Assembly: GCF_007050985.1 (NCBI RefSeq)
Contig: NZ_VHSF01000003.1
Span: 655,500-719,499 of the forward strand
DNA: 64,000 nt
Origin: Christiangramia sabulilitoris
GTDB lineage: Bacteria; Bacteroidota; Bacteroidia; Flavobacteriales; Flavobacteriaceae
Reading direction: 5' to 3'
Numbering within the stretch: the stretch's first letter is position 1; every line of letters begins with the position of its first letter. The translations under genes and the position numbers were made by a program. This document shows, piece by piece, positions 27,784 through 30,450 of this stretch. The notes under the pieces were generated by a model. It did not search any database and was not told the DNA's origin. It was given only the letters and a program-made list of their open reading frames with translations.

Positions 27784-27831
27784 TTATCGTTTTTCAATAA
27801 TTAATTTATATTTGTTATCGAAAAACAATAA
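27784..27831 (+). promoter_or_regulatory. Promoter with two operator-like repeats for the DUF2975-XRE operon
   Basis: TTATCG-N5-CAATAA occurs twice (27784-27800 and 27815-27831, 31 bases apart, about three helical turns). Each is imperfectly palindromic, and each is followed by TTAA. The -7 element TATATTTG (27807-27814) lies exactly between them. Binding at either site would block RNA polymerase, so the promoter is probably autoregulated by the XRE protein two genes on. Confidence 0.7.
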
Positions 27832-27843
27832 TTAAATAATTAA

Positions 27844-28413
27844 ATGAATAGAAATTCACTCCTGAATATTGCAAATTTTCTTTGCCAGTTTTTTAAAATC
27901 ATTATTGGAGTTTCTATTATCATTATAGCAGCGTTTTTTGCTCATTTTCAGTTTGAAAGAGACTCGTATGCAGACTTGAAAATTGAAGAACCCACGAATA
28001 ACTCTATAATTCGTTTTGAAAGTGAATCCATCGCTGGAAAAGAACCTTTGGATTTTCAATCTTTGAGGCTTTCAGACTGGAAAACAGGTTCGCTCTATTT
28101 TACATTTTTCAAGGTTACAATGATTATGACACTCACCTACCTGTCATTAAATCAATTTGAAAAAGTCCTTAAATCTGTAAAAGATCTAAAAACCTTCCAC
28201 CAAACAAACGTAAATTCTCTAAGAAGAATCGGCTATTACTGTCTCCTTATAACCGGATTATCCATTTTCAACTACTGGGAATTTGGGGTTTATGCGAAAA
28301 GTTCAATTTCTATATCTCTGGATGTTTTGCTAATTACTCTTCTCGCATTTATCCTGGCAGAAGTTTTTAAAGAAGGAAATAATCTTCTGGAAGAAAATCA
28401 ACTTACGATATAG
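27844..28413 (+). CDS. DUF2975-type four-helix membrane protein
   Basis: A 189-residue inner-membrane protein with four predicted helices (about 12-32, 83-103, 128-147 and 152-172) and a ~45-residue loop after the first. The end (ILAEVFKEGNNLLEENQLTI) matches DUF2975 proteins, which nearly always precede a small XRE regulator, as here with a one-base gap. The function of the family is unknown; the pairing suggests a membrane sensor or antagonist controlling the DNA-binding partner. The gene is more AT-rich than its neighbours. Confidence 0.75.
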   Translation: MNRNSLLNIANFLCQFFKIIIGVSIIIIAAFFAHFQFERDSYADLKIEEPTNNSIIRFESESIAGKEPLDFQSLRLSDWKTGSLYFTFFKVTMIMTLTYLSLNQFEKVLKSVKDLKTFHQTNVNSLRRIGYYCLLITGLSIFNYWEFGVYAKSSISISLDVLLITLLAFILAEVFKEGNNLLEENQLTI

Positions 28414-28414
28414 A

Positions 28415-28618
28415 ATGCCGATAATAATCCACCTTGACAAAGTTCTTGAAGAGAACGGGATGAAAAGCAATGAGCTTGCTGAAATTATAGGCATCACTAC
28501 CGCCAACCTCTCTATTCTGAAGACAGGCAAAGCAAAAGCAGTTCGTTTTTCAACCCTGGAAGCTATTTGCGAGGCACTAAACTGTCAGCCAGGTGATATA
28601 CTGGAATACCAACCTTAA
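28415..28618 (+). CDS. Small XRE/Cro-family regulator (YozG-like)
   Basis: A 67-residue protein made of one helix-turn-helix domain: LDKVLEENGMKSNELAEIIGITTANLSILKTGKAKAVRF with the recognition helix around residues 27-38, and the terminal CEALNCQPGDILEY typical of this subfamily. It is encoded directly after the DUF2975 gene and is probably translated with it. The double operator in front of the pair is the likely target. Confidence 0.9.
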   Translation: MPIIIHLDKVLEENGMKSNELAEIIGITTANLSILKTGKAKAVRFSTLEAICEALNCQPGDILEYQP

Positions 28619-28680: not shown

Positions 28681-30450
28681 ATGAATAAAATCTTTTTAGT
28701 CCTACTATTTTTAAGCTTCCTTGGTAATGCCCAGACCAATACTTATCATATTTCTTTTGAAAATGCTGTGCATCACGAAGCGAAAGTAAATATCAATTTT
28801 CCGGAGGTAAAGTCTAATAGCATTACTATCACCATGAGCCGAACTTCCCCCGGAAGATATGCCCTGCACGAGTTCGTTAAAAATGTATATGGTCTCAAGG
28901 CAACCAACAGCAATGGCGAGATGATAAAAGCAAAGCGGATAGATCCATATTCATGGGAAGTCAGTGATCATGATGGCACGGTAAATATCGAATATATCCT
29001 TTTTGCCAATCGTGGTGATGGCACCTATTCTCAAATAGATGAAACTCATGCCCACCTTAATATGCCGGCAACCTTTATGTATGCAAAGGAATTTGAACAC
29101 AGACCAATAGAGATCAATTTCGAGACACGAAAAGACCTGGACTGGAAAGTTGCTACCCAGTTAAAGCAGATATCGGGAACGACCTTTTTTGCGCCAGATC
29201 TGTATTATTTTATGGACAGCCCTACAGAGATCAGCGATTTTGATTTAAAGGAATTTGACCTTGAGGGACAGAACATTCAATTTGTATTGCATCATAAGGG
29301 CAGTGAAGAAGAATTTTCTGAATATTTTGACCAGGTAGAAAGAATCGTCAGGCAGGAAAAAAAGGTATTCGGAGAATTACCAGATTTCGATTACGATAAA
29401 TATACTTTCCTGGCCTGTTATATGCCCAATGTATCTGGTGACGGCATGGAACATAGAAACAGTACGATTTTAACCGACAAAGAAAGTCTTTCTGAAGGAG
29501 GGATGAAGGGAAATATAGGCACCGTGGCTCATGAGTTCTTTCACGCCTGGAACGTGGAACGTTTAAGACCAGCAGAACTGGAACCTTTTGATTTTTCCCA
29601 GGCAAACATGACCGGTTCTCTATGGTTTGCAGAAGGCTTCACCAGTTATTATACAGGATTGATGCTCTGCCGGGCACAAATAAATACACCCAGGGAGTAC
29701 ATAGATGGCTTAAACGGAACTTTTAACTATGTATGGAACTCTCCTGCTCTTGACTATTTTAGCCCGGTTGAAATGAGCTACCAGGCAACTTCCGTAGATG
29801 CCGCCACATCTGTAGATCCTACCAACCGTGAAAATACTTTTATCTCCTATTATTCCTACGGAAGTGTTTTAGGCCTGGCCCTGGATATGGCTTTAAGACA
29901 GCAGGATCTCAACCTGGATGATTTTATGAAACTGATGTGGAATAAATATGGGAAAAAAGAGGTAGCTTATAAACTAAGTGATATTGAGGCAACGCTTAAA
30001 GAATATGCCGGAGAAAGATTTGGGTCTGAATTCTTCGCAAAATATGTTTACCACAGCAATATGCCAGACTACAAAAATCTTTTTGAAAGTGTGGGTATTG
30101 AGCTAGTACAAGAAGAAGGAAAATATACAGGCATACCGACCACCGAGACTACCGGCGGGTTAAAAATCAACAGAAATACTTCCAAAAATAGCCCGGCTTA
30201 TGAAGCAGAATTAACCAGCGGGGATGTGATCACTCATATAGATGAAATACCGGTTAAAACAAAAGAAGATTTTGAGACAGCCGTTGAGAACAGTAATTCT
30301 GATGTTATTAAAGTGAAATACATTCGTTTCGGAGAAGAACGAACTGCTGAAGTCAAAACTGAAAAAGATCCAACCTACATTATAAGACTTAAGGAGAATC
30401 CAACCAGGGAGGCTTTGAAAAGACGTGAAAACTGGCTGCAAGCGAAATAA
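28681..30450 (+). CDS. M61-family metallopeptidase with PDZ domain
   Basis: 589 residues from the ATG at 28681 (an in-frame TTG six bases upstream is less likely). A signal peptide (LVLLFLSFLGNAQ) sends it to the periplasm. The N-terminal beta-domain is followed by the gluzincin site VAHEFFHAWNVERLRP (HExxH) with the downstream Glu in LWFAEGFTSYY. A PDZ domain occupies about residues 490-570 (TTGGLKINRNTSKNSPAYEAELTSGDVI). M61 enzymes are glycyl aminopeptidases. The gene is alone between the XRE gene and a strong bidirectional terminator. Confidence 0.92.
   Translation: MNKIFLVLLFLSFLGNAQTNTYHISFENAVHHEAKVNINFPEVKSNSITITMSRTSPGRYALHEFVKNVYGLKATNSNGEMIKAKRIDPYSWEVSDHDGTVNIEYILFANRGDGTYSQIDETHAHLNMPATFMYAKEFEHRPIEINFETRKDLDWKVATQLKQISGTTFFAPDLYYFMDSPTEISDFDLKEFDLEGQNIQFVLHHKGSEEEFSEYFDQVERIVRQEKKVFGELPDFDYDKYTFLACYMPNVSGDGMEHRNSTILTDKESLSEGGMKGNIGTVAHEFFHAWNVERLRPAELEPFDFSQANMTGSLWFAEGFTSYYTGLMLCRAQINTPREYIDGLNGTFNYVWNSPALDYFSPVEMSYQATSVDAATSVDPTNRENTFISYYSYGSVLGLALDMALRQQDLNLDDFMKLMWNKYGKKEVAYKLSDIEATLKEYAGERFGSEFFAKYVYHSNMPDYKNLFESVGIELVQEEGKYTGIPTTETTGGLKINRNTSKNSPAYEAELTSGDVITHIDEIPVKTKEDFETAVENSNSDVIKVKYIRFGEERTAEVKTEKDPTYIIRLKENPTREALKRRENWLQAK

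Follow-up and report, generated by a model that had tools for sequence, protein, structure and literature searches.

The association of a small Xre regulator with a YoaS-like membrane protein was reported in 2009 by Makarova et al., who counted 32 cases (PMC2701414); in the available portion of that survey, the membrane protein is called a "likely permease" and the pair is set aside. The locus described here likewise has a DUF2975-type membrane protein beside a small Xre regulator, and, as far as the available portion of the survey goes, it offers the association and the permease guess only (PMC2701414), to which the present analysis adds the operator, its spacings, a C-terminal tail motif and extra genes. 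The locus lies in a window of 64,000 nucleotides of Christiangramia sabulilitoris (contig NZ_VHSF01000003.1), the window being the whole stretch of DNA that was analysed.

Two further systems were used for comparison. In CylR1/CylR2 of Enterococcus faecalis, a predicted membrane partner also signals to a small XRE repressor, by a link that is equally open in the accessible part of the article (PMC3709268). According to the same part, CylR1 has three predicted helices, whereas the DUF2975 protein has four, and CylR2 acts through an overlapping promoter to repress a divergent toxin operon (PMC3709268), whereas the present operon would control itself. Both operators of the window sit at the start of the DUF2975-XRE operon and, in place of the divergent lantibiotic toxin operon of the CylR system, the window has a divergent gene for a 780-aa antiporter-like protein. 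CylR2 was the top structural match of the AlphaFold2 model of the XRE regulator (pLDDT 72.7, moderate confidence), with a Z of 10.4 for 2xiu and 9.9 for 1utx, an rmsd of 2.1 and 65 aligned residues, but other XRE folds, e.g. SinR, were tied with it within 1 Z, so that the comparison shows the fold class and no special kinship. The second system is the two-gene operon SdpI/SdpR of Bacillus subtilis, in which, in the text available, the autorepressor is sequestered by the membrane protein upon a signal (PMC1626106). For our XRE regulator, a Pfam search at E up to 1 gave HTH_26 first among the helix-turn-helix models and no ArsR model, and for the membrane protein it gave DUF2975 only. SdpR is an ArsR-type regulator. 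By the tests made, the DUF2975-XRE pair is a member of neither SdpI/SdpR nor CylR1/CylR2.

By sequence, the closest PDB entry to the XRE regulator was 3tyr (VanUg, E 1.5e-7), but the NCBIfam VanU model scored 39.6 bits, well below its cut-off of 150. This type of regulator need not go with a membrane protein, since the YozG subfamily is also represented in restriction-modification operons: in a 2025 paper, XRE.MhoVI of Mycoplasma is put in this "barely characterised" subfamily, and its restriction-modification operon, as presented in the accessible part of the paper, contains methyltransferase and restriction genes and no DUF2975 gene (PMC12376442). Other mentions, each in a partly accessible source, are a Streptomyces peptide cluster in which DUF2975 is listed next to a helix-turn-helix gene (PMC7827011), yozG in a B. 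subtilis microarray table (PMC4326333) and a gene table of Snodgrassella that contains the name yozG (PMC9239279). The LugI palindrome, as given in the available part of the lugdunin paper, was considered as the same motif and rejected by eye as a misfit to our operator. In the literature searched, which is short of subscription journals, we found neither a description of the operator or the tail nor a functional study of DUF2975-XRE pairs.

Genes, promoter and twin operators of the window

The operon consists of a gene for a 189-aa DUF2975 membrane protein (positions 27844..28413, + strand; Pfam PF11188, 45.6 bits against a cut-off of 27) and, 1 nt past its stop codon, a gene for a 67-aa XRE/HTH_26 regulator, the candidate autorepressor (28415..28618, + strand; PF13443, 87.9 bits against a cut-off of 22). 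An earlier note, made from the sequence of the window, had read these genes as a four-helix DUF2975 protein followed by a 67-residue XRE regulator; the Pfam profiles and coordinates agree with this reading, and an AlphaFold2 model (pLDDT 85.6) supports the count of four helices. "YozG-like" is our presumptive name for the regulator of the window; DUF2975 was found in B. subtilis, where we take YoaS to be the DUF2975 protein and YozG to be its partner. The divergent upstream neighbour (27579-25237) encodes the 780-aa multi-helix protein, by eye an Mrp-type antiporter subunit, and the downstream neighbour is an M61-type peptidase gene (PF17899/PF05299), 62 nt away if its start is the ATG at 28681.

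Upstream of the operon, the sequence TTATCG-N5-CAATAA occurs twice on the + strand, at 27784..27800 with the spacer TTTTT (operator 1, TTATCGTTTTTCAATAA) and at 27815..27831 with the spacer AAAAA (operator 2, TTATCGAAAAACAATAA). As the earlier note had stated, the two starts are 31 bp apart and each copy is followed by TTAA. The -7 consensus of Bacteroidota promoters is TAnnTTTG, and a candidate for this element, TATATTTG, is found at 27807..27814 on the + strand. It does lie between the repeats, as the earlier note had it, but not midway, being located 6 nt after operator 1 and 0 nt before operator 2. Operator 1 occupies the DNA immediately before the -7 element; operator 2 abuts this element and covers the likely transcription start. 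Since each copy is near-identical on both strands, the repeat is best described as a near-perfect dyad, TTATYG-N5-CRATAA, and not merely as a direct repeat.

In order to find other targets, as the earlier note had proposed, the genome of 3.21 Mb (3,210,070 bases) was searched, and perfect dyads were found at these two places only. Dyads with one mismatch occurred at 28 places, the 2 perfect ones included, as compared to 44 for a reversed-pattern control, which gives no sign of further targets in this genome. Within the window, TTATCG-N5-CAATAA with up to three mismatches was not enriched either (80 sites against 101 expected). Other targets in the genome were rejected as not credible, the perfect sites being unique and the one-mismatch sites not in excess, and with no other perfect operator the regulator probably controls nothing but its own operon here.

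Conservation of the operator and its tie to the XRE regulator

A match to the DUF2975 protein of the window was present in 10 of 24 genomes of the genus, and DUF2975 (PF11188) in 129 of 299 genomes of the bacterial family. The family loci were taken from 30 + 92 stretches around the listed best matches, with one repeat copy in genome G255 left out. An XRE homologue, adjacent and on the same strand, was found in 130 of the 132 DUF2975 loci scanned, which bears out the statement of the earlier note that the two genes are often paired. DUF2975 is upstream of XRE in 129 of these 130 loci; the order is reversed in L102, where a twin operator is followed by XRE and then by DUF2975.

The earlier note had also proposed that the upstream regions of homologous pairs be compared, and the repeat turned out to be kept. 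At least one perfect dyad is located within 2 kb upstream of XRE in 106 of 119 distinct family operons chosen irrespective of the operator (0.05 in dinucleotide shuffles), twin dyads are present in 52 of the 119 (0 in the shuffles), and 13 of the 119 have no perfect dyad. All ten genus operons, our own included, carry a perfect dyad and eight of them carry twins. A larger collection of 138 operons, in which some were included because the operator was present, comprises 67 with twin dyads, 60 with a single dyad and 11 with none; in eight of these 11 a dyad with one mismatch lies no farther than 1.5 kb away, and the other three have nothing better than two mismatches.

The geometry of the sites is also conserved. 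The spacing of the 67 twins is 31, 32 or 33 bp in 42, 20 and 5 operons, respectively. A -7 word (TAnnTTT[GA]) is present in 65 of the 67, at 6, 7 or 8 nt from operator 1 in 42, 18 and 5 operons; operator 2 is thus fixed against the -7 word and it is the linker length that varies. In the single-dyad operons, a degenerate second site was identified 21 bp upstream of the dyad, with a mean of 4.03 mismatches as compared to 7.59 (sd 0.66) elsewhere; it has three mismatches or fewer in 33 of 60 operons and is unrecognisable (more than three) in 27. With the helical turn taken as 10.5 bp, the offsets of +31 and -21 correspond to three and two turns, from which we infer that two dimers would bind on one face of the DNA. 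A different arrangement was observed in five Prevotella-type/Bacteroidales loci (L288, L299, L300, L302 and L306), in which two perfect dyads are 76-77 bp apart, not 31.

The search was also performed in reverse, from the operator to the regulator. The twin pattern, searched blind in the 299 genomes, was found in 59 of them, with 0 for the reversed control, and a dyad followed after 4-10 nt by TAnnTTTG was found in 82 of the 299 genomes, again with 0 for the control. This second pattern gave 89 listed places, and at 87 of them an XRE homologue follows on the same strand no more than 3.5 kb downstream, which ties the site to the XRE regulator. The two other places are the repeat copy in G255, which was not read, and a site in G071 without an XRE homologue; the G071 genome has no XRE match at all, and its site is probably due to chance. 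Counted as distinct sequences in the fetched loci, XRE is downstream of 89 of 90 promoter-type sites and of 56 of 56 twins. The same operator and DUF2975 genes were seen near both ends of contig G255:C1 (near 1531 and 3074035), probably because the chromosome is circular and its overlapping ends were left uncut.

Control of CPBP proteases in trans, at first suggested by two twin sites, was rejected, because the proteases open operons that end in DUF2975-XRE. Four viral contigs also match the twin pattern. In the viral sequence available, no DUF2975-XRE pair was seen near these sites among frames of at least 60 aa starting within up to 2 kb on both strands; the matches are probably fortuitous, and carriage of the pair by phages was rejected on this ground. 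DUF2975 had no match in PHROGs at E up to 0.01.

Beyond the family, one genome per species was scanned with a 13-member XRE alignment, whose first sequence is from Priestia, and the best 80 of at least 591 XRE matches were taken as the named loci, a sample that is consequently biased towards Bacillota, with Bacteroidota second. A few records are labelled Promineifilum (Chloroflexota), Magasanikbacteria, Roizmanbacteria or Coriobacteriaceae, but these are metagenome bins and the labels may be wrong. Among these best 80 of at least 591 loci, a perfect dyad was found within 2.4 kb upstream of XRE in 69 and a dyad with at most one mismatch in 79; within 2 kb, perfect dyads were observed in 68 of the 80, against 0.1 expected from shuffles (perfect dyads only). 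The site 21 bp upstream was again detected in the 57 named loci outside Bacteroidota (mean mismatches 4.37 as compared to 7.86, sd 0.62; three or fewer in 22 loci) and was weaker in the 22 loci inside Bacteroidota (5.05; three or fewer in 6); as judged by eye, most of the signal comes from a CRATAA half-site. Also by eye, the dyad overlaps a -35-like TTGNNN word in many Bacillota loci, and a -10-like TACAAT in Streptococcus.

Plasmid copies were sampled as 12 loci picked from 60 listed rows of 193 records. A perfect dyad is present in four of them (Priestia, Peribacillus, Serratia and Streptococcus), the Streptococcus locus having twin perfect dyads exactly 31 apart and, by eye, a promoter of the TTGACA/TACAAT type. 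One mismatch was found in three (Metabacillus, Vibrio and Paraclostridium, the last one inside a DUF2975 gene and doubtful) and two mismatches in a further three (Weissella, Novosphingobium and Streptomyces), the Streptomyces copy being the symmetric CTATCG-N5-CGATAG. The Phocaeicola and Roseburia loci have nothing better than three mismatches.

The regulator and its membrane partner

The regulator is strongly conserved: 25 of its 67 positions are invariant across 32 XRE sequences, and the mean pairwise identity of these 32 is 80%. The residues N31, S33, L35, K39, R44 and F45, in or just after the recognition helix, are present in all 127 dyad-bearing family regulators. In regulators without a dyad the helix is mostly alike, with differences at L35 and F45 in L003 and at K39 in L112. 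Loss of the operator through a changed recognition helix is thus unsupported in the family, the dyad-less regulators having mostly the same residues. Two cysteines, C52 and C57 (codons at 28568-28585), form a C-x4-C pattern and may have a structural, redox or metal-related role; of the 138 family regulators, all have the first and 137 the second, and both are conserved in 32 of 32 others.

The DUF2975 protein is far more variable, with a mean pairwise identity of 29% over 70 sequences, but of 63% for its last eight residues. In the AlphaFold2 model, helices span residues 3-43, 79-113, 120-150 and 154-188, and the last helix runs through the C-terminal tail; the four helices and the charge pattern suggest that both termini are cytoplasmic. 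The tail, LEENQLTI in the window (codons at 28387..28410, + strand), is a candidate docking site for the regulator. Its consensus is K-x-E-N-[DE]-L-T-[VI], with the penultimate T in 73 and the last V or I in 74 of 75 homologues, and among 70 homologues it is the segment of highest information (2.84 bits per position). Information is lowest in the predicted outer loop 3 (1.33 bits), and occupancy is lowest in the predicted outer loop 1 (43%, 1.75 bits); helix 3 is also low in information (1.68 bits). All but one of the 70 retain F118, which lies in the predicted inner loop 2. Foldseek found no match of the DUF2975 model in the PDB below an E of 0.001 (best 2.6), and VIA-align gave a Z of 8.9 or less, ordinary for helical bundles.

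In the family set, the T[VI] end is present in 130 of 137 DUF2975 copies adjacent to XRE. Retention of the tail for translational coupling was considered and rejected, because all 37 inner copies, which do not adjoin XRE, also end in T[VI]. One further locus, L009, looks decayed: its DUF2975 frame has an internal stop and a C-terminus that ends before the tail, and neither XRE nor a dyad is present.

Between operator and XRE, 87 of 126 operons contain one DUF2975 gene alone, 28 contain two to four copies, and 11 contain extra or unresolved frames. In a few relatives, the anatomy of the operon shows that other genes stand under the same operator: two CPBP/Rce1-like proteases precede DUF2975-XRE behind twin operators in G072 (L167/L214) and G248 (L172/L211), PF02517 being found for the G248 proteases. 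The operons of G232 and G082 contain an extra membrane protein of 415-423 aa, without a Pfam match in G082, and some operons also contain small proteins with CxxC pairs. Downstream, no general gene emerged from the nearest frames of at least 110 aa in 75 named loci (DUF817 in 8 of 75, DUF4153 in 4 of 75, Rce1-like in 2); in 27 of the 75, the nearest downstream frame has the orientation of XRE and lies no more than 100 nt from it.

A proposed membrane-linked autorepressor and its alternatives

Taken together, we read the locus as a self-contained membrane-linked autorepressor switch, with a probability of roughly 0.6. The part that concerns the DNA is the firmest. The earlier note had proposed that XRE represses its own operon, and this has come through both computational tests, given that homologues keep the repeat and that the genome has no other perfect site; on these sequence comparisons, XRE is very probably an autorepressor that acts by binding the dyads. 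Two XRE dimers would bind the dyads on one face of the DNA, three turns apart, covering the -7 element and the transcription start, and the bound regulator would hold the operon at a low level. The idea of the earlier note that the membrane partner may modulate XRE is indirectly supported by the pairing in 130 of 132 loci and by the conserved C-terminal tail. DUF2975 would be located in the inner membrane, its variable loop facing outwards and three conserved parts, the N-terminus, loop 2 and the C-terminal tail, facing the cytoplasm. Upon a membrane or envelope signal, the tail would retain XRE at the membrane or reshape it, the operators would be freed, and more DUF2975 and XRE would be made. 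For this tail step the chances seem somewhat better than even.

The alternative that survives best is plain autoregulation, in which XRE would steady the level of the membrane protein and DUF2975, e.g. a small transporter or membrane stabiliser, would act without touching XRE. We consider it rather unlikely, even though the operator evidence accounts for everything on the DNA in this case as well and, in the available portion of the 2009 survey, YoaS-like proteins are called likely permeases (Makarova 2009, PMC2701414). Moreover, in the locus L105 DUF2975 has kept its tail and one dyad with no XRE nearby, so DUF2975 may work without XRE. The near-obligatory pairing (130 of 132 loci) argues against plain autoregulation, and so do the tail, as the most informative segment of an otherwise variable protein, and the predicted outer loops, which vary as in a sensor.

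A toxin-antitoxin-like pair, with a harmful DUF2975 restrained by XRE as its autoregulating partner, would fit a small two-gene autoregulated unit that is also found on plasmids, and the 2009 survey, in its available portion, allowed membrane-protein pairs as unusual toxin-antitoxin systems; the same portion, however, excludes the present pairs (PMC2701414). DUF2975 had no PADLOC match at E up to 0.1, a single XRE is accompanied by two to four DUF2975 copies in 28 of 126 operons, and XRE is far more conserved than DUF2975, all of which makes such a pair improbable.

Still less probable is that XRE activates the operon instead of repressing it. The minority architecture, with its degenerate second site upstream of the first (-21), would suit an activator, but the -7 element follows operator 1 at a distance of 6-8 nt, and operator 2 lies over the likely start site. 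The dyads that, by eye, often overlap TTGNNN words of the -35 type in Bacillota and the -10-like TACAAT in Streptococcus also speak against activation. Finally, it is very improbable, and the least favoured reading of all, that the dyads are bound by another, global regulator and that XRE acts elsewhere, as nearly every site belongs to an XRE operon (87 of 89 places), the perfect sites are unique in the genome of the window, and the dyads accompany XRE across phyla.

Returning to the membrane-linked autorepressor, its benefit to the cell could be the protection of the membrane, which is a guess and a doubtful one. We tentatively suggest, at somewhat less than even odds, that the pair is a widespread minimal two-piece transmembrane switch, in which one operator word, a near-invariant 67-residue repressor and a docking tail would be kept across phyla and the outer sensor face would be free to change. 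Such a switch could serve as a plug-in input device, sometimes with extra membrane-protection genes under the same operator. DUF2975-XRE pairs are common, and the operator, the fixed spacings and the tail motif make this uncharacterised pair directly testable. If the tail is indeed the contact, the pair would provide a very small route for passing a signal from the membrane to the DNA.
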